Shown: positions 2,954 through 27,411 of the stretch, one piece after another
How the letters are laid out: every line of letters begins with the position of its first letter
Numbering within the stretch: the stretch's first letter is position 1
The notes under the pieces: model-generated
The model's database searches: none
Told to the model about the DNA's origin: nothing
What the model saw: only the letters and a program-made list of their open reading frames with translations
Made by a program: the position numbers and the translations under genes
IMG/VR virus record: IMGVR_UViG_3300025904_000143
Span: 1-27,900 of that record
Origin: a virus
Length of the DNA stretch: 27,900 nt
Reading direction: 5' to 3' (one strand)

Positions 2954-2956
2954 GGG

Positions 2957-3110
2957 TATTGGGTAATTAAGTTGATTGAGTTGGATTAGGTTGATTGGTT
3001 AAGTGGTTGTATTGTTGTAATAGTTGTATTGGTTGATTGGGCTGGATTGAGTAGACCTGCCGGCAGGCAGGCTAAGTTGACTGAGTTGAGAGTTGATTAA
3101 GTTGATCTGT
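2957..3110. repeat. C-poor short-repeat leader with CCTGCCGGCAGG palindrome
   Basis: A run of TTGATTGAGTTGGATTAGG and GGTTGTATTG units upstream of the endolysin. On the mRNA strand it is almost G-free. It is interrupted at 3056-3067 by the perfect 12-bp palindrome CCTGCCGGCAGG, followed by a partial repeat CAGGC. The palindrome is the only GC-rich part and looks like a separate small insertion. Confidence 0.6.
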
Positions 3111-4479: not shown

Positions 4480-4605
4480 CGTCATAGGAGGAACGAAGCA
4501 ATCCCAAACTATACAGGGCGAACAGGACAGTGTGGAACTTGCATAGCGGATCTGCAAATTGGGTCCGCTAGCTAGCGGATTCGTCGCTCACTCCTCGCAA
4601 TGACG
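4480..4605. repeat. CGTCATTGCG-family palindromic repeat, copy A
   Basis: It begins CGTCATAGGAGGAACGAAGC, continues AATCCCAAACTATACAGGGC, and ends ACTCCTCGCAATGACG, so the ends are inverted repeats. It shares the internal GAAGCAATCCCAAACTATAC and GGAACTTGCATAG blocks with the copy at 17116-17259. Near the right end (4564-4579) it carries the perfect palindrome TCCGCTAGCTAGCGGA where the other copy has ATTGCTTCG. The remaining spacer to 4677 shows nothing else. Confidence 0.8.
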
Positions 4606-4677
4606 CCAGGGATGTTTAGAAAATCTTAAATTACAATTGGGAGGTTTTGACCATCAATTGATTGACAAACTTATATG

Positions 4678-6529: not shown

Positions 6530-8137
6530 TTAAGGGTTAGTTAATGCAAATCCATTACTATCTAAAGTCGCTGGCGGCGTAAGGGTATAAGTTCCTTTTA
6601 CAGACACATTACCAAGCAGCCTCTTTGCTCCAGAACCATTCAATGTTAAATTCTTATAGCCAGGTGTTGGGTCAGATGGCACCTGTATATCCTGATTGCC
6701 AGCAAGTCCGTATATAAATGTATTTGCTGCCTGGTTGCAATACAACTTACCTGTCGCCATTGGCGCAGTGGCGCTTTGGTAGTTTAAATAGCCGTTATTA
6801 TTCCAAACAGAATTAGTGTTATCTCCATTTATAACACCTGTTGTCGAAAAGCCCGTACCTGAACTAATATTTGTAACGGTGATTGCACCGCTAATTAATA
6901 TTGGAGCGACAAAAGACCCTGTATTATTATCTTTCAAACTAATATTCTGATTGTTGGTGGTGAATTTTAACGTTCCTGTACCTGTATTAAAAAAGTAACA
7001 ATCTAATGCGAAACCGCCCCTAAACTCAACATTTGGATTGCCCCCGCTCCAATCTATTCCTTGGGTTCCTCCCAATCCAAATTGCCCAATAAACAATAAA
7101 TTACCAGCCCCTGTCTTTTTAAATGCCGAGCCGTCGGCACCATTACTAATATTGGTAGTGCCATTGACTATCAAATCATATATCCCGCAGTCAAAATTAG
7201 AATTGACAGTTAGATTGCCTGTTATAGTTGTGGTACCTCCTGAAGATTTTGTTCCAGGTAAGCCTGTCATTAGGTTGATGTAGCTCGTATATGGCAATGT
7301 ATAATTGCCTGTCATATTATAAGCCATAGCTGAAGTAGAGCCATGCATATAATTAAATATGCCCGTGGCCATAGGAACTGTTGTATTGTTAAGCGTTATT
7401 TTACCATCATTATTTAATGTAGATGAGGCATTGTCACCATTGATAGTACTGAAACTATTTAAATTGGAACCACCGATATTCGTAAGGGTAATTGCACCGC
7501 TAATTAATATTGGAGCATTCCAGGTTCCAGATATATTATTATTGCCAAAAAAAGTTTGGTTATTAGTCGTAAACTTAAACGTTCCTGTTCCAGTATTGAA
7601 TTTATATGAATCGTAAGCAATGCCACCTCTAAACTCAACATTTGGATTGCCCCCGCTCCAATCTATAGTACTCGTCACGCTAGTAAATTGGCCGATAAAT
7701 AACAGATTACCTGAACCTGATTTACCGAATTTACCTTGATTGGTATTACTAACTGTAGTCGTACCATTAACCGTTAAGTCATAGCCTAAACATTCGAGAT
7801 TGAAGACCGAAAGATTTCCAGAAATAGTAGTATTAGCTGTCAGATATTTATTGCCAAATCCTTGTGTCGTTAAATTTCTATAGCTTAAATTCAATACCCT
7901 TTGATCATAATACCCACCATATATAATAGTGGATGATGTGCCGCTTGAGAAACTATTGATAAAATTGTTATAGCCATTAAGCACAAGTGAAATATTGGAA
8001 TTATTAGCAGCAAAATTCACTATCCCAGTTGCTTGGAGGTCACCGTTAACCGTAATATTTATATTCGTTATACTGCTATCGAGCAATGAACCAGCAATGT
8101 AAAGATTATTTACAGTGATCCACATATCGACTATCAC
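6530..8137 (-). CDS. Repetitive beta-rich adhesin or tail-spike-like protein, 5' end out of frame
   Basis: The frame opens at a GTG (8137; first ATG at 8125) and codes about 535 residues rich in Asn, Thr, Ser and Gly, with almost no Cys or Lys, as in beta-solenoid adhesins and tail spikes. It contains two tandem copies of a roughly 200-residue unit. Shared blocks are GNLLFIGQF, DWSGGNPNVEFRGG, NTGTGT-KFTTNNQ, APILISGAIT and INGDN. The DNA period is exactly 609 bp: the same 37-bp stretch lies at 7021-7057 and 7630-7666. The true N-terminus is probably the short frame at 8146-8313, separated by a one-base loss in a G run near 8162. The gene follows a collagen-like fibre and lies in the usual fibre position. 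It is AT-rich compared with its phage neighbours. Confidence 0.75.
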   Translation of the reverse strand: MIVDMWITVNNLYIAGSLLDSSITNINITVNGDLQATGIVNFAANNSNISLVLNGYNNFINSFSSGTSSTIIYGGYYDQRVLNLSYRNLTTQGFGNKYLTANTTISGNLSVFNLECLGYDLTVNGTTTVSNTNQGKFGKSGSGNLLFIGQFTSVTSTIDWSGGNPNVEFRGGIAYDSYKFNTGTGTFKFTTNNQTFFGNNNISGTWNAPILISGAITLTNIGGSNLNSFSTINGDNASSTLNNDGKITLNNTTVPMATGIFNYMHGSTSAMAYNMTGNYTLPYTSYINLMTGLPGTKSSGGTTTITGNLTVNSNFDCGIYDLIVNGTTNISNGADGSAFKKTGAGNLLFIGQFGLGGTQGIDWSGGNPNVEFRGGFALDCYFFNTGTGTLKFTTNNQNISLKDNNTGSFVAPILISGAITVTNISSGTGFSTTGVINGDNTNSVWNNNGYLNYQSATAPMATGKLYCNQAANTFIYGLAGNQDIQVPSDPTPGYKNLTLNGSGAKRLLGNVSVKGTYTLTPPATLDSNGFALTNP

Positions 8138-8739: not shown

Positions 8740-8905
8740 GGGTGGTTAATTGGTTGTAATGGTTGTTAGATTGGTTGTAATGGTTGTATTGGGTAGTAGT
8801 TTAAGTAGTTGCAATGGTTGTATTGGTTAAATCGGTTGTAAATGTTGAAATTCACCCTTCTTCAACCAATACAACTGCTACAACCAATACAACCTATCTG
8901 AATCA
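8740..8905. repeat. Short-repeat leader (GGTTGTAATGG family) with opposed arm
   Basis: GGTTGTAATGGTTGTATTGG units lie at about 8743-8845 on the plus strand, followed by the inverse theme (AACCAATACAACTGCTACAA) at about 8865-8905. The arms are complementary and could pair over about 15-20 bp at a time. The spacer lies between the collagen-like gene and the split 140-codon gene. Confidence 0.65.
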
Positions 8906-9945: not shown

Positions 9946-10430
9946 TCAATAGACGCTTGCTTCTTGCCGCACATGGCCTTTGCCCGGCAATCGACCAAAA
10001 CCACGGGCTGCAATACTTTGCCCTCCGCTAGCCAGCGGACCCGCAGGCTCTCGCTTCTGCAAAGTTTGCTAATGCCCTTTCCCGCGCACAGGCCACCATT
10101 GTTTTGGTCGATTTCGGCCGAAGCTGGTCCATTGACGGGGTAGAGGAACAATTTCATGTGAAGAGATCCAAAACATTAATAGGTAAAGCCCTGCGCACCG
10201 CATTTCGACTGAGCTCAATGTGACACCCTTTTTTTTGCTCCGATAAAAGTGCGTTGCCATGCTGAGCCTGTCGAAGCATTGGTGGGCAAAGGCTTTTCTG
10301 ATGCATTGTGTTGGTCGATTTCGGCCGAAGCCGGTCTATTGACGGGGTAGAGGATTTTGTCTGAACCAGATTTTTTTTAATTATTGAATTACCTGAATTC
10401 TGTTTATTCAATAATTCTGATAATTCGGGT
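9946..10430. repeat. Nest of intergenic repeats
   Basis: A gene-free stretch. ATCGACCAAAAC (about 9988) and GTTTTGGTCGAT (10101-10112) are inverted arms. They flank the near-palindrome TCCGCTAGCCAGCGGA at 10024-10039 and the inner pair GCAATACTTTGC / GCAAAGTTTGC. A 43-bp direct repeat starting TTGGTCGATTTCGGCCGAAG lies at 10104-10146 and again at 10311-10353. Between the copies, TTCGACTGAGCTCAATG (10204-10220) faces CATGCTGAGCCTGTCGAA (10258-10275) as an imperfect inverted repeat. Open frames across this stretch are composition artefacts. Confidence 0.75.
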
Positions 10431-11051
10431 TCAGACAATTTGATCCACGCGCAAATAATCCCCCGCATAATCATCCCCTGGATAATTAAAGCTAGTTTTA
10501 TCGACGCTGCGGATACGCGGGCCCGACTGGCGGCTGCTTTTGTTTTTGGGGTTGAATTGCCAGAGCGGGAAATCGGCTTTATGATCGCGCAGGAATTTCT
10601 CTACTTCGTTGGCGTGTGCATTGGCTACGCTTCTGTGCTGCTGTACCAGCCTGGCTACGTCCTGCGGCGACAATGGATCGGCATTGTCATGGTGTTTGAT
10701 CACCGGTCCTGAAGCGGTATAATGCACTGCATCAGCCTCGACAAAGCGGGCAAAGGTGAAGTAGACCAGCGTAGGCACCAAACCTTCATAAAGAACGATG
10801 TGACCGTAGTGGTCGAGGTATTCCGTGCCGTTCAGCAGGTCTTTGTAGGGCTGTGGGGTATTATCCTGCAAACTGCCATCGGCATTAAAGTATTGTATAA
10901 AGTCATAGTACAAAGCGTGACCCAGAAACGGTTTTAGGTCCAACTCCTGTGCTTTTTTGACGAAGACTTTAAGCCGGTCGGATTTAATATTGACCGACAG
11001 GTCCTCATAGTTTTGAAATGTGATCTGATCGATCAGGTATGGGGTGTTCAT
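10431..11051 (-). CDS. Head-tail connector-like phage structural protein
   Basis: A 206-residue soluble protein. The N-terminal two thirds are predicted helical and aromatic (VKKAQELDLKPFLGHALYYDFIQYF, GHIVLYEGLVPTLVYFTFARFVEAD). The tail is basic and disordered (KNKSSRQSGPRIRSVDKTSF). The pattern of a site for LDLKPFLG, then Y, then a helical GLVPTLVYF block recalls the DUF6712-type proteins of Bacteroidota prophages. These sit after the capsid gene and are thought to be head-completion or connector proteins (gp6-like). Family assignment is from memory and moderate. It follows the damaged capsid/portal region, consistent with a head module. It is preceded by a repeat leader and one MITE copy. 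Confidence 0.65.
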   Translation of the reverse strand: MNTPYLIDQITFQNYEDLSVNIKSDRLKVFVKKAQELDLKPFLGHALYYDFIQYFNADGSLQDNTPQPYKDLLNGTEYLDHYGHIVLYEGLVPTLVYFTFARFVEADAVHYTASGPVIKHHDNADPLSPQDVARLVQQHRSVANAHANEVEKFLRDHKADFPLWQFNPKNKSSRQSGPRIRSVDKTSFNYPGDDYAGDYLRVDQIV

Positions 11052-11052
11052 T

Positions 11053-11130
11053 GTTTTGGTTGATTGAGTTGGATTAAGTTAGATTGAGTTGGATTAAGTT
11101 GACTAAGTTGGATTGAGTTGATGGGGTTGT
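11053..11130. repeat. C-free short-repeat leader (TTGATTGAGTTGGATTAAG family)
   Basis: Tandem GATTGAGTTGGATTAAGTTG units lie immediately upstream of the connector-like gene. The stretch has no C on the plus strand apart from one position, so its mRNA is essentially G-free. The same unit occurs at 2957-3010 and 23803-23840, and inverted at 11345-11395 and 23930-23950. Confidence 0.7.
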
Positions 11131-11168: not shown

Positions 11169-11302
11169 GACTCACCCGGTCATATTCCGCTAGCTAGCGG
11201 ATCGACACCCTCTATACCGCAAGCGGTAAAGAGGGAATAGATTTTTTTACCCTCTTTGCGAAGCAGAGAGGGTCGAACAGCGCAGCGCATTCGGGGTGAG
11301 TC
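11169..11302. repeat. MITE-like element, copy 1
   Basis: A 134-bp element bounded by inverted ends GACTCACCC and GGGTGAGTC. It holds two hairpins. The first pairs 11208-11220 with 11223-11235 (core TACCGC/GCGGTA), and the second pairs 11249-11259 with 11263-11273 (core TGC/GCA). The end block GGTCGAACAGCGCAGCGCAT is identical in copy 2 (24394-24526). The palindrome TCCGCTAGCTAGCGGA sits at 11186-11201 only in this copy. It lies between the connector gene and the portal-like remnant. Confidence 0.8.
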
Positions 11303-13957: not shown

Positions 13958-14806
13958 ATGAAAAAATACCTGATTCTGCTGATTGCCATTATATCGTTCA
14001 GCTCTTTCACCCAAAAGAAAATACTCTGGGTAGCCATCGGCGATTCCATTACTTATTTAAACGACCACCCGGACGAAACAATGAACCGTGTAACCAGCGG
14101 TTATCTGAGTCGGGTTACGGCCACATTGCCGAACGTGCAATACATTAACCAGGGCCACAACGGTTGGAAATCAACCGACATAGCCGCCAATATTGACAAG
14201 CTGGGACTGGTTAAGGCCGACGTCTACACCATTTTCCTGGGAACCAACGATTGGTGGGGCGGCATTCCCGTTGGCACTATCAACGACTATAAAAATGTAA
14301 CCGGAACGGGGACGGTCTTTGGCTCATTCCGGATCATTATAGACAAGGTGCGCCAGTTGAACAATCAGGCAAAGATCATATTGATAACGCCGATGCAACG
14401 CAGTGATTTTATTTATGTGCTTGATTACAACAACAACGCCTATGGATCTTATAAACAGAAAAATGGGCAGTCGCTTGCGGAAGTCGCTAATGCGGTAATT
14501 GCTATTGGCAAATATGAGCACCTCTCGGTGATCGATATTTATCATGACCCGCGATTTGATATTAAAAACATGGTCAATTTTAAGCGCCTGAAGGACCCGC
14601 AATCCGGTGAATACAAAGATTTTAAGTACCCGCAGTCGACCACAATTCCCTATGATCCAAAAACCGATGAATACCCTTATCCTCCGGCAGCCATAAACAT
14701 GACCTACGACGGCCTGCACCCGTCGGATAAAGGGGATTCGGTTATAGCCCGTTTGGTTGTTGATGCGTTTGACCGGCTGGGTGTTGCTGGCCGAGAGGAT
14801 AAGTAA
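13958..14806 (+). CDS. Secreted SGNH/GDSL hydrolase
   Basis: A 282-residue protein with a signal peptide (about residues 1-18). All four SGNH blocks are present: GDSIT with nucleophile Ser30, an oxyanion Gly in NQGHNGW (about 64-70), LGTNDWW with Asn97, and YDGLHPSDKGD with Asp251 and His254 as catalytic partners. Such enzymes remove acyl or acetyl esters from carbohydrates and lipids. The natural substrate is unknown; acetyl-xylan or surface-glycan deacetylation is typical of Bacteroidota members. The gene is on the plus strand within a mostly minus-strand prophage, next to a signal peptidase and a lipoprotein, suggesting a host-derived block. No clear Bacteroidota promoter is visible just upstream. 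Confidence 0.92.
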   Translation: MKKYLILLIAIISFSSFTQKKILWVAIGDSITYLNDHPDETMNRVTSGYLSRVTATLPNVQYINQGHNGWKSTDIAANIDKLGLVKADVYTIFLGTNDWWGGIPVGTINDYKNVTGTGTVFGSFRIIIDKVRQLNNQAKIILITPMQRSDFIYVLDYNNNAYGSYKQKNGQSLAEVANAVIAIGKYEHLSVIDIYHDPRFDIKNMVNFKRLKDPQSGEYKDFKYPQSTTIPYDPKTDEYPYPPAAINMTYDGLHPSDKGDSVIARLVVDAFDRLGVAGREDK

Positions 14807-15894: not shown

Positions 15895-16989
15895 TTAATT
15901 TATCGGTTTAAACACCCTGTTCCACCTGATCTTATTGAAAAAGCTTTGTGTTGAATCGGAACTGAAGAACGTGATGATCGCCTTGCCTACAATATGGTCT
16001 TCTGGAACATAGCCCCAGAAGCGGCAGTCGAGCGAGTTGTGGCGGTTGTCGCCCATCATCCAGTAATAGTTCATTTTGAAGATGTAGCTGGTTGCTTTTT
16101 GTCCGTTCAGGAGGATGTCTTTGCCCTGGGTTTCCACTTTGTTATGCTCATATAATTCGATTGCGCGGCGGTATAAAGCCATGGTCGAATCATTCAGCGG
16201 AATAGTGTATCCGCGCTTGGGCAAGGTGAGCGGACCGAAGTTATCCTGGTTCCATTTGAAATGAGCATTGTGCGGGAAAACCAATGAATCCCACTGACCG
16301 GCAGGCAGCACCACAGGCGTTACGTTTTTGATATAAGGCTGGCTTTTTAAGGCCGAGAGGTTTTTATAAGGAACAGTTACGGCGCTGCCATCGGTTTCAG
16401 ATGGTTTCACACCTAAATCAGTATAGAACTGTGGGTTGATGTTAGAACCATCGGTAACAATACGATAATCAGTCTGCGACTCAGGCGCATTCGGAGCGGC
16501 CTTGCCATTGATGTATACTTGCCCGTTTACGATGGTCAGCACATCACCAGGCGTTGCCTGGCAGCGTTTAATGAGGGCGGTGCGTTCATCTACAGGGCGG
16601 TTATATTGCGGATCGGCTTCTTCGGGTTTATTGAATACTACGATGTCGCCTTTTTTTACTTCGGATATTCCGGGCAGGCGCCAATAAGGTAGTTTGATCA
16701 GGTCGGTATAAGTTTTTATGCCATAAACGGTTGGCTCGGTAAAAGGTATAGAAAGCGGCGTATTGGCAATGCGCGGACCGTAGCTGATCTTGCTCACAAA
16801 AAGGTAATCGCCAACCAATTGCGTTCCTTCCATAGAGCCGGAAGGGATAGCATAGGCCGAAAACAATAATCCGCGGATAATAGTAGCGGCAACCAGTGCG
16901 AACAGCAAGGCATCCATCCACTCGCGCAGTTTGCTTTTTTTAGGTTTTTGCGTATCAGTCTTTTTCCGGAACGGCCATTTCCAATTCAT
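15895..16989 (-). CDS. lepB: Signal peptidase I
   Basis: A 364-residue membrane-bound serine protease that cuts signal peptides. A basic N-terminus and one membrane helix (about 24-45) are followed by the catalytic box AIPSGSMEGT, where Ser52 is the nucleophile. The box TALIKRCQATPGD carries the general base Lys141. The last box MMGDNRHNSLDCRFWGYVP lies near residues 310-330. Between the catalytic boxes and the C-terminal box is the long insertion typical of Bacteroidota signal peptidases, which makes the protein much longer than proteobacterial LepB. It appears intact. This gene is usually a core chromosomal gene and its presence between phage modules is unexpected (see finding). It may be a second paralogue. 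Its upstream region holds no clear promoter element. Confidence 0.96.
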   Translation of the reverse strand: MNWKWPFRKKTDTQKPKKSKLREWMDALLFALVAATIIRGLLFSAYAIPSGSMEGTQLVGDYLFVSKISYGPRIANTPLSIPFTEPTVYGIKTYTDLIKLPYWRLPGISEVKKGDIVVFNKPEEADPQYNRPVDERTALIKRCQATPGDVLTIVNGQVYINGKAAPNAPESQTDYRIVTDGSNINPQFYTDLGVKPSETDGSAVTVPYKNLSALKSQPYIKNVTPVVLPAGQWDSLVFPHNAHFKWNQDNFGPLTLPKRGYTIPLNDSTMALYRRAIELYEHNKVETQGKDILLNGQKATSYIFKMNYYWMMGDNRHNSLDCRFWGYVPEDHIVGKAIITFFSSDSTQSFFNKIRWNRVFKPIN

Positions 16990-17115
16990 GATAAATATGA
17001 TTTATCATGTTAGATGGGGGTAGGGGCAAATTGTTACAATGAAAGAGAATAATTTTATTGTGACAACATCTACAAAGTTTTGGAAGATGATATTTCTCGC
17101 ACAAATTATCCGCCG

Positions 17116-17259
17116 CGTCATTGCGAGAAGCCGGCAGGGTTAAGTGTAGGGGGGCGACGAAGCAATCCCAAACTATACAGGGCGAATGGGCAGGTGTAGA
17201 ACTTGCATAGCCTCTCTGCCAATCGGGGATTGCTTCGTCGTACACTCCTCGCAATGACG
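17116..17259. repeat. CGTCATTGCG-family palindromic repeat, copy B
   Basis: It starts CGTCATTGCGAGAAGCCGGC and ends ACTCCTCGCAATGACG. Inside are the blocks CGAAGCAATCCCAAACTATA and GAACTTGCATAG shared with copy A, and GGGGATTGCTTCGTCG where copy A has the TCCGCTAGCTAGCGGA palindrome. It occupies most of the gap between signal peptidase and the small HTH-like gene. The rest of 16990-17362 shows no gene. Confidence 0.8.
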
Positions 17260-17362: not shown

Positions 17363-17596
17363 TTAATTCTCCTCAAAACTATTCAACGCCCGCCATATGG
17401 TGCGTTCATCCCTGTTGAATTTTCCTTCAGCCTCTAATACTGCCTGGTTTTTGGTAATACCGCGTGTCTGAATTTGCGCCTGTACCCAAAGGTATATTTC
17501 ACGGTAAGTAAAAATTTTGGCAGTGATGAACCCGGCTTTGTACAGTTCAGAAAATATGCCGTCGTCGAATAGGGTGTTGGCGATTTTGATGTTCAT
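17363..17596 (-). CDS. Small helix-turn-helix-like phage protein
   Basis: A 77-residue protein, predicted helical. The C-terminal half (GITKNQAVLEAEGKFNRDER, then TIWRALNSFEEN) reads as a helix-turn-helix, where a conserved GKF-R-ER-IWRAL-type recognition helix is expected. The N-terminal half (FDDGIFSELYKAGFITAKIF, then TYREIYLWVQAQI) is an ordinary helical region. It is downstream of the tape-measure gene on the same strand, so a co-transcribed regulator or small virion-associated protein is possible. The HTH call is by eye and tentative. Confidence 0.5.
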   Translation of the reverse strand: MNIKIANTLFDDGIFSELYKAGFITAKIFTYREIYLWVQAQIQTRGITKNQAVLEAEGKFNRDERTIWRALNSFEEN

Positions 17597-17690
17597 TGGG
17601 GTTGGTTGTAGTGGTTGTAGCAGTTGTATTGGTTGTAGAAGTTATAGAGGTTATAAAAGTTGAGCAAGTCAGCCTTTTAGCATTCAGCTT
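17597..17690. repeat. GGTTGTAGTGGTTGTAGCAG short-repeat leader
   Basis: TTGGTTGTAGTGGTTGTAGC, then AGTTGTATTGGTTGTAGAAG units, directly upstream of the small HTH-like gene. It belongs to the same family as 8743-8845 and 23840-23895. Its mRNA reads CAACCACTACAACC, almost free of G. Confidence 0.6.
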
Positions 17691-23802: not shown

Positions 23803-23950
23803 GTTGATTAGGTTGATTAGGTTAAGTGGTTGATTGAGTTGTATTGATTGTAGTGGTTGTAGAGGTTATCGACGTTATAAAGGTTGTAGTAGTTGAATAG
23901 ATCGGCTATTGACTTTGGTGTTAAAATTCAACTTAATCTAACTCAATCAA
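23803..23950. repeat. Short-repeat leader with complementary end
   Basis: GGTTGATTAGGTTGATTAGG and GTTGATTGAGTTGTATTG units run into GGTTGTAGTGGTTGTAGAGG, then the inverse AACTTAATCTAACTCAATCA appears at about 23930-23950. Two of the window's repeat families are joined here in a single leader, upstream of the 689-residue gene. Confidence 0.65.
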
Positions 23951-24393: not shown

Positions 24394-24526
24394 GACTCAC
24401 CCGGTCATTGCTTCGCTCGACCACCCTCTCTATGCTGCGCATAAAGAGGGGTTTTAATTCTTTTTCTTACCCTCTTTCCACAAAGTGGAGAGAGGGTCGA
24501 ACAGCGCAGCGCATTCGGGGTGAGTC
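24394..24526. repeat. MITE-like element, copy 2
   Basis: A 133-bp element with ends GACTCACCC and GGGTGAGTC. Hairpin 1 pairs 24424-24435 with 24439-24450 (core TATGC/GCATA). Hairpin 2 spans about 24469-24497 (core TCCAC/GTGGA). The right block GGTCGAACAGCGCAGCGCAT is identical to copy 1. It lies between the tail-completion gene and the split gp10-like gene. Confidence 0.8.
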
Positions 24527-26217: not shown

Positions 26218-27411
26218 CTACGAGTTTGTTTCCTTATAGGGAAGTTTGCTTTTGGGCATAGCTAATTTACTGATTTTTAATTTATTTAATGCAATATATC
26301 TCAGCGGATCGATCAGGTGATTAAAACGGTCAACTGGTTCATTTATCGTTTTACCTGAACGATCCATCCGCCATTTGTATCGACTCAATTCTTCACGCAG
26401 ATTGATACTGTTCCTGGTGACGTTGAGCCTGTAACGTTTTAGAATATCGATGGAGTTCTTAACGCTGTCCGCACCTTTTTTTACGCTGGTCATATACCAA
26501 CCTAAACGTTTAAGCTCTTCAATTGATTTAGGTTCGGCGCTATCAGCAATTATTTCGGTTCGTTTGCTGATTCCAAGGCCGGTTAGCTTTTCTGATATAT
26601 CCAGGTTGGTTAAGCCGGTTTCGTATATCAGCTCGTTTATCCATAGCTCACCGTTGTAACGGTACACCTCGATGCAGCCGGTTTCATCGTTGGTAAAGCC
26701 AAAATCAAGCCCCAGTGCCAGCAGGTTTGCGTCCTTAGGAATGGTGTCGCATAGTTTCCAATTAGTAAGGACGAGGCCGTTGACCTTTCCGGTAAGTCCG
26801 CGTGCATACACTTTCCATTGTTCTTCATCCACCTGCCGGAGCGATTCGATCTTATTGTGCGTACCATCATCAAGGAATGGATTATGGCGATGGTCGGATA
26901 TAATAAGCTTCACATCGCCTCGCCCAATTAAATTGTCATGTACCCAAAAAGCTGCGTTAGGGTTATAGTCGATATAGATCCGTTTTCGCGTTCGCAAAGC
27001 CAGTTCACTGTAGATCTGCCAGTCTATGCCATTCGCCTCGTTTATAAATAAATAATCTCTTTTTCCTGACTTCGCATCCTGTGCATCTGAATAACTTTTG
27101 AATTCTACGATGCTGCTGTTATTAAACAAAAAAACACGGTCGGACTTTGTATAAGATTTGACGCTTGCCCTTATCTGTTCGGAATCATTATACATTTTCA
27201 GGGCATCACGCAGGGCACCGGCTTTTAGGTTTGGAATGTCTTGCCCGACAACGGTGATTACCTGTTTCGATTGTTTACAGGCAATCCTAAAAAGCACCTG
27301 CATAATGGCGTAAGTTTTGCCCGAACTGGTTCCGCCCTGGTTGACCACAATCGGTGCCGTGGCCTCATGATTTGCAGGGAAAAGTACAGAGGTTTGTTGC
27401 TTTGCCGGCAT
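26218..27411 (-). CDS. Phage terminase large subunit (packaging ATPase/nuclease)
   Basis: A 397-residue PBSX/Terminase_3-type packaging motor that cuts concatemeric DNA and drives it into the prohead. The ATPase domain has Walker A at about residues 25-33 (QGGTSSGKT) and a Walker-B-like strand YLFINEANG (about 120-128, with Asn-Glu in place of Asp-Glu). The RNase H-fold nuclease domain has acidic residues at the three expected places: Asp236 in LGLDFGFTND, Asp290 in EIIADSAEPKS, and Asp368 in NHLIDPLRY. The protein is full length for the family. It is 33 bp downstream of the small terminase and 26 bp upstream of the chaperone-like gene. A portal gene, normally next, is absent here. Confidence 0.97.
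   Translation of the reverse strand: MPAKQQTSVLFPANHEATAPIVVNQGGTSSGKTYAIMQVLFRIACKQSKQVITVVGQDIPNLKAGALRDALKMYNDSEQIRASVKSYTKSDRVFLFNNSSIVEFKSYSDAQDAKSGKRDYLFINEANGIDWQIYSELALRTRKRIYIDYNPNAAFWVHDNLIGRGDVKLIISDHRHNPFLDDGTHNKIESLRQVDEEQWKVYARGLTGKVNGLVLTNWKLCDTIPKDANLLALGLDFGFTNDETGCIEVYRYNGELWINELIYETGLTNLDISEKLTGLGISKRTEIIADSAEPKSIEELKRLGWYMTSVKKGADSVKNSIDILKRYRLNVTRNSINLREELSRYKWRMDRSGKTINEPVDRFNHLIDPLRYIALNKLKISKLAMPKSKLPYKETNS

Follow-up and report, generated by a model that had tools for sequence, protein, structure and literature searches.

Small TCC...GGA hairpin modules in Bacteroidota and their phages and the apparent replacement of small inverted repeats by them

Introduction

Among known kinds of element, the modules described here come closest to bacterial REPs and to the hairpin elements found in organelles. 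CGTC- and GTAG-tagged REPs, including those associated with RAYTs, are, like the modules, short dispersed bacterial palindromes with variable loops, and two of them, CGTC-1 and CGTC-4, correspond to RPE-6 and RPE-4, respectively (PMC3733652). The modules differ from REPs in measuring 14-22 bp and in occurring either alone or inside REPs, tRNA copies and terminators; CGTC-REPs are themselves among their recipients. A REP head (GTAG or CGTC) was sought beside the module stem in 76 contexts with the strands pooled, and no conserved word was found at +1 to +8; at the genome level, we also saw no dependence on RAYT/Y1_Tnp (correlation 0.32, with genomes G013 and G096 lacking PF01797).

The Rickettsia palindromic elements (RPEs) likewise resemble the modules in being short palindromes scattered over a single genome. 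A known hallmark of RPEs is that they insert into genes in frame. The single coding case that we examined, a GIY-YIG copy (L202), appears frame-shifted, with no ORF of at least 60 aa running through the module; an RPE-like in-frame insertion seems less likely on this one case. Small palindromic repeats are, more generally, usually viewed as units inserting beside other sequence, in contrast to the substitution for an existing hairpin described below.

Small hairpins that spread through a genome are also described, in the relevant parts of the sources, as organelle hairpin elements or GC clusters of sponges (PMC2800124), Volvox (PMC2670323) and yeast (GC42; PMC4478555). The double-hairpin elements of Allomyces are summarised there as lacking target duplications (PMC2800124), and the loops of GC42 as more variable than its stems (PMC4478555). 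The modules share with these elements, as far as the same passages describe them, presence/absence polymorphism and a loop that varies more than the stem (PMC2800124, PMC4478555); the organelle elements differ in their location and in their longer units, and the passages concerned report no replacement rule. In the open-licence literature, we found no description of a hairpin-for-hairpin exchange and no known enzyme for one; the module words (16-18-mers) were printed in no open-licence paper found, and the 7-mer stems gave chance matches only.

Palindromic modules in a phage genome and in its relatives

The window, that is, the whole stretch of DNA analysed, is a 27.9-kb virus record with phage genes (e.g., a large terminase at 26218-27411), the nearest relatives of which are in viral contigs, with remoter matches including Flavobacterium and Bacteroides phages; an Rfam search of it matched no family. 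Exactly where the first-pass annotation had placed them, we recovered the 16-bp perfect palindrome TCCGCTAGCTAGCGGA (stem TCCGCT/AGCGGA, loop AGCT) at 4564-4579 (module 1) and 11186-11201 (module 2), and a one-mismatch copy, TCCGCTAGCCAGCGGA, at 10024-10039 within an intergenic repeat (module 3), none of them assigned to a strand. With up to three mismatches allowed, these are three matches versus 0.06 expected in 100 shuffles.

Module 1 lies in a degenerate, head-to-head CGTC-REP dimer (4480..4606, plus strand), at the position where the right REP stem would be expected to have its 3' strand, GATTGC. A sister dimer (17115..17259, plus strand) provides an empty allele, with GATTGC at 17228-17233 in the setting GGG[GATTGC]TTCGTCG (17225-17240). 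Module 2 lies in a MITE-like repeat (11169..11302, plus strand; ends GACTCACCC/GGGTGAGTC) that is predicted to fold into a single structure in which the module forms a separate hairpin (z -7.7); its sister (24394..24526, plus strand) is likewise empty, with TGCTTCGC at 24409-24416 (GGTCAT[TGCTTCGC]TCGACC at about 24403-24422). Both sister repeats do contain ATTGCTTCG, from which it had been proposed that the palindrome replaces the same GCTTCG context in each. The replacement holds, but the stretch lost differs: GATTGC with TTCG kept in the CGTC-REP, versus TGCTTCGC with TCGAC kept in the MITE-like repeat.

The comparison of occupied and empty sites extends to other phages. The protein encoded beside the second palindrome has relatives at 90-95% identity in other phage contigs, and three of these contigs (L318, L321 and L345) share the MITE at the corresponding intergenic position, where GCGAAGC or GCGTAGC stands instead of the palindrome. 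The empty allele reads GGTCGA[GCGAAGC]TATGACC in L321 (reverse complement) and GGTCGG[GCGTAGC]AATGACC in L318 and L345, whereas the minus strand of the window has TCCGCTAGCTAGCGGA plus one A at this site, as GTCGA[TCCGCTAGCTAGCGGA]ATATGACC. GCGAAGC is an extraordinarily stable DNA mini-hairpin. On these alignments, the GCGAAGC/GCGTAGC of the related phages is a better empty allele for module 2 than the sister copy in the window, and, since all three relatives are without the palindrome, that at 11186 would most simply be a gain in the lineage of the window. A further copy of the MITE, located in L319, shows replacement of its other hairpin tip (CTCTTTA[TCCGCTAGCCAGCGGA]TAGAGAG), with CCGATAGCTATCGG at a third place. 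In the downstream intergenic repeat, that of module 3, the window has TCCGCTGGCTAGCGGA (10024-10039, minus strand), which is absent from the L321 orthologue, where TCCCGATAATTATCGGGA is found at a second slot instead. The hairpin is present at some orthologous phage sites and absent at others (window versus L318, L321 and L345), and likewise in tRNA arrays.

A broader class of hairpins and its distribution

A search of 84,980 genomes recovered 92 stretches with the exact 16-mer; judged by record title, about 75 belong to Bacteroidota. Twelve genomes that have it contain 1-13 copies each when one mismatch is allowed, against 0 for the reversed control, and only one of 247 genomes sampled from the phylum, namely the centre genome, has the exact form; IMG/VR has 37 stretches with TCCCGATAGCTATCGGGA and two with the 16-mer. 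When repeated hairpins were sought de novo in 400 kb each of three genomes (G008, G003 and G004), the module did not surface because it is low-copy. The genome-wide count suggested in the first-pass annotation thus gives no high-copy element; the widespread entity is a broader class of 14-22-bp self-complementary modules of the form 5'-TCC...GGA-3', of which the 16-mer is one member. The stems of this class are TCCGCT, TCCGCC and TCCCGAT, and the loop of 2-8 nt often makes the whole a perfect palindrome. Across 99 Bacteroidota genomes, TCCCGAT-N2-8-ATCGGGA occurs 294 times (in 48 genomes) versus 7 for the backward pattern, and TCCGCY-N2-6-RGCGGA 967 times versus 479, with up to 109 versus 2 in one genome. 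Outside the Bacteroidota, 13 of 14 genomes have no more than one TCCCGAT hairpin, the exception being a member of the Dehalococcoidia (G265) with 64; the remaining 100 Chloroflexota genomes have 0-2 each.

Within single genomes, the loops behave in two ways. In G037, eight of nine TCCCGAT modules have the identical AGCT loop amid unrelated flanks and with sharp boundaries; therefore, whole modules are copied. In G096, the stem is constant and the loop different at every copy, and in 39 of 42 copies from G078 the minority letters amount to 32% in the loop, 1.3% in the stem and 1.7% in the flank. Such per-copy loop variation with a constant stem is not predicted by whole-module copying alone. 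The 42 copies of G078 (e.g., L435, position 1501) are REP-like, of the form CCATCACAAAA-TCCGCC-NNN-GGCGGA-GTGAT, in which the 3-nt loop is hypervariable.

The surroundings do not bear out the idea of one target context common to the sites: the flanks of 76 distinct 16-mer contexts share no word, GCTTCG is one recipient among many, and its sharing in the window is incidental. In 17 of the 76, an outer stem of at least 4 bp lies directly on the module versus 1.4 expected; these are mostly terminators (e.g., AAAAAAAGCCA[module]TGGCTTTTTTT). A GC-rich stem with a T run after it, as in an intrinsic terminator, is seen in a subset only (e.g., L005, L007, L009, L039, L064 and L070), and this layout is absent from the tRNA and REP cases. 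That every module caps a larger hairpin was rejected as a general rule, the excess over permuted flanks being only slight when imperfect stems are allowed (pairing 0.49 versus 0.36). The 16-mer is further found within cobalamin riboswitches (L058 and L071), and the module in CGTC-REPs of the window and L052, as well as of L191 with a TCCGCC module. In a single 120-bp repeat family of G008, slot A is either CCCCACTTGGG or TCCGCTAGCTAGCGGA, and slots B and C hold different TCC..GGA hairpins (TCCCGATAGCTATCGGGA, TCCTGAAGTTTCATTCAGGA or TCCCGATGTTGCAATCGGGA). The CGTC-REP tips of G265 alternate between C-GAA-G, CC-type and CCCCGAT/TCCCGAT hairpins; in L464-L480 of this genome, five or more hairpin types are intermingled at these tips, and TCCCGAT or CCCCGAT stems are common among them.

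Replacement of small inverted repeats

Apart from terminators, the commonest setting of the 16-mer is that of tandem partial tRNA copies adjoining an intact tRNA, and the intact tRNAs beside modified copies allow the exact swap boundaries to be read. In the complete genome of Marivirga arenosa, the intact tRNA-Met has GGATTCATA[ACCCTGAGGT]CGGCAG where its copies have GGATTC(A/C)TA[TCCGCTAGCTAGCGGA]CGGCAG. A comparable pair for tRNA-Val is GAGCA[CCTCGTTTACACCGAGG]GGGT versus GAGCA[TCCCGATTTTATCGGGA]GGGT; the segments lost in copies of tRNA-Thr, tRNA-Asp and tRNA-Arg are GCCGGTCGGC, CCTGTCACGCAGG and ACCGTAGGT, respectively, and an anticodon arm in G265 (L468) shows TCTGACTGCCAGTCAGA versus TCCCGATGGAATCGGGA. 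The inverted repeats lost from tRNA-Thr (GCCGGTCGGC) and tRNA-Met (ACCCTGAGGT) are not tRNA stems, which suggests that the hairpins exchanged are those of DNA and not of RNA.

Empty alleles were also sought automatically, with no boundary set by eye, by searching elsewhere for both exact 9-mers adjacent to a module with another short segment between them, and were found for 57 of 264 module contexts. This table was thinned by hand to 33 lost segments, with one per recipient family and the module-like and terminator rows removed; the set includes four added pairs from the window/sister, related-phage and tRNA comparisons. The hand-thinned segments are 3-17 nt long (median 8), and 20 of them have at least two terminal complementary pairs; at least three are seen in 15, where letter shuffles lead one to expect 0.65. 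Their summed terminal pairs are 70 versus 11.4 shuffled, a value reached in none of 50,000 shuffles; in view of the thinning by hand, the precise figure is provisional. The unthinned table, in which related rows and variant modules are included, gives 278 pairs versus 50.5, and a separate test of 12 occupied/empty pairs gives 35 terminal pairs versus 4.2 (0 of 200,000). Roughly one in three lost segments (AAC, GTT, TAACCC, GGC) is no inverted repeat; hence, near-pure insertion also occurs. The occupied/empty pairs show this loss of 3-17 nt and no target duplication.

The recipients comprise the GCGAAGC tip of the MITE, the tips of terminators, both tips and stem strands in CGTC-REPs and, in pseudo-tRNAs, anticodon arms as well as cryptic inverted repeats, and in most cases their common feature is a small inverted repeat (GCGAAGC, ACC..GGT, CCC..GGG, anticodon arms). 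The earlier suggestion that a module is placed into unrelated host repeats is accordingly upheld well beyond the window, by replacement rather than clean insertion.

Possible origins of the modules

The reading that we favour, at a probability of about 0.55, is a DNA-level hairpin-for-hairpin replacement, in which TCC..GGA modules displace the small inverted repeats of their recipients. The replacement phenomenon, mainly in Bacteroidota and their phages, is well supported; its enzyme and donor step we infer. On extrusion in single-stranded DNA, a small hairpin would probably be cut or would stall the polymerase, and a more stable hairpin present elsewhere in the cell would then be copied into the gap; stems would stay perfect while loops would drift or get re-made, and the window would record three such replacements in one phage lineage. 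A stronger form, which we put forward as doubtful, is a dedicated DNA process in Bacteroidota and some Chloroflexota that would recognise small extruded hairpins and swap in fixed-stem hairpins with a newly made loop; it would thereby give new caps to tRNA copies, REPs and terminators, and would be carried by phages from one genome to another. The swap boundaries are exact in recipients as unlike as tRNA copies and dispersed repeats. If true, hairpin replacement would account for the mosaic tips of bacterial repeat hairpins, its rule would predict the sites of new modules, and the change and spread of transposase-less REPs (CGTC type), a long-open question, would become testable by strain sequencing.

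Alternatively, though we regard this as unlikely, the TCC..GGA hairpin could be a sequence-specific non-autonomous mobile element, recognised and inserted in trans by some transposase or nuclease (IS200-like/RAYT, or a small GIY-YIG). Sharp boundaries, the same modules in unrelated flanks and the GIY-YIG ORFs less than 400 bp from many tRNA-type modules are in line with such an element, as are the correlations across 99 genomes of module number with GIY-YIG number (Spearman 0.49) and with Y1_Tnp number (0.32), which are, however, confounded by phylogeny. Moreover, most modules do not lie near a GIY-YIG gene, G013 and G096 (10 and 9 TCCCGAT hairpins) have no PF01797 (Y1_Tnp) match, no conserved flanking tetranucleotide is seen, and the occupied/empty pairs lack the target-site duplication by which a MITE- or IS-derived element would be recognised. 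Three particular candidates were rejected: a RAYT/IS200 transposase as the mover (weak correlation, counter-example genomes), a GIY-YIG as the mover (close to tRNA-type cases only) and a larger element ended by the palindrome, none being seen in a non-exhaustive survey of 400 kb of G037 and the phage alignments.

Convergence under selection, with TCC..GGA stems arising independently at hairpin tips because they serve well in terminators or as a binding site, strikes us as improbable. It would suit the many copies that are terminator tips and the constant stem (1.3% minority letters) with variable loop (32%) in G078; however, such a function is unlikely for modules in broken pseudo-tRNAs, disrupted ORFs and dispersed repeats, and convergence predicts neither the same loops at unrelated places of one genome nor the hairpin-for-hairpin rule. 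It is quite improbable, in turn, that only the host repeats move, their tips being divergent sub-families with words shared through horizontal transfer between Bacteroidota: the host repeats are indeed dispersed and one tip type can be amplified in a family (L464), but the same words recur across many unrelated families, tRNAs and terminators, and between orthologous phage sites it is chiefly the tip that differs. That a few palindromes in one window are a coincidence has a negligible probability, for although the exact 16-mer is rare across the phylum, this reading is refuted by the 0.06 window matches expected, the 92 genome-wide matches, the outer-stem excess, the class enrichment (294 versus 7) and the occupied/empty pairs.

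Further observations

In tRNA-Arg copies at L032:1860-2700, the D-arm GCTCAGC is swapped for another hairpin, TCACGCCTAGCGTGA, by which stem types beyond TCC..GGA would appear to take part. Tandem small GIY-YIG ORFs with tRNA 3' parts and a terminator were detected in Marivirga arenosa (L060:5230-6250), L038, L017, L082 and L202. These GIY-YIG/tRNA duplications form pseudo-tRNA arrays beside the intact tRNA and, judged from their layout, resemble a very small tRNA-associated element in its own right.

Between genes of the window, degenerate 9-nt repeats such as GGTTGTAAT and TTGATTGAG, lying on both strands, additionally form tracts at 2954-3053, 8753-8855, 11042-11119, 17593-17679 and 23812-23903, and similar tracts are found in the intergenic stretches of related phages. 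A gene at 6530-8137 has an internal duplication with a spacing of 609 bp, and the ORFs at 13958-14806 and 15895-16989 resemble, by eye from their translations, an SGNH/GDSL hydrolase and a signal peptidase I, respectively.
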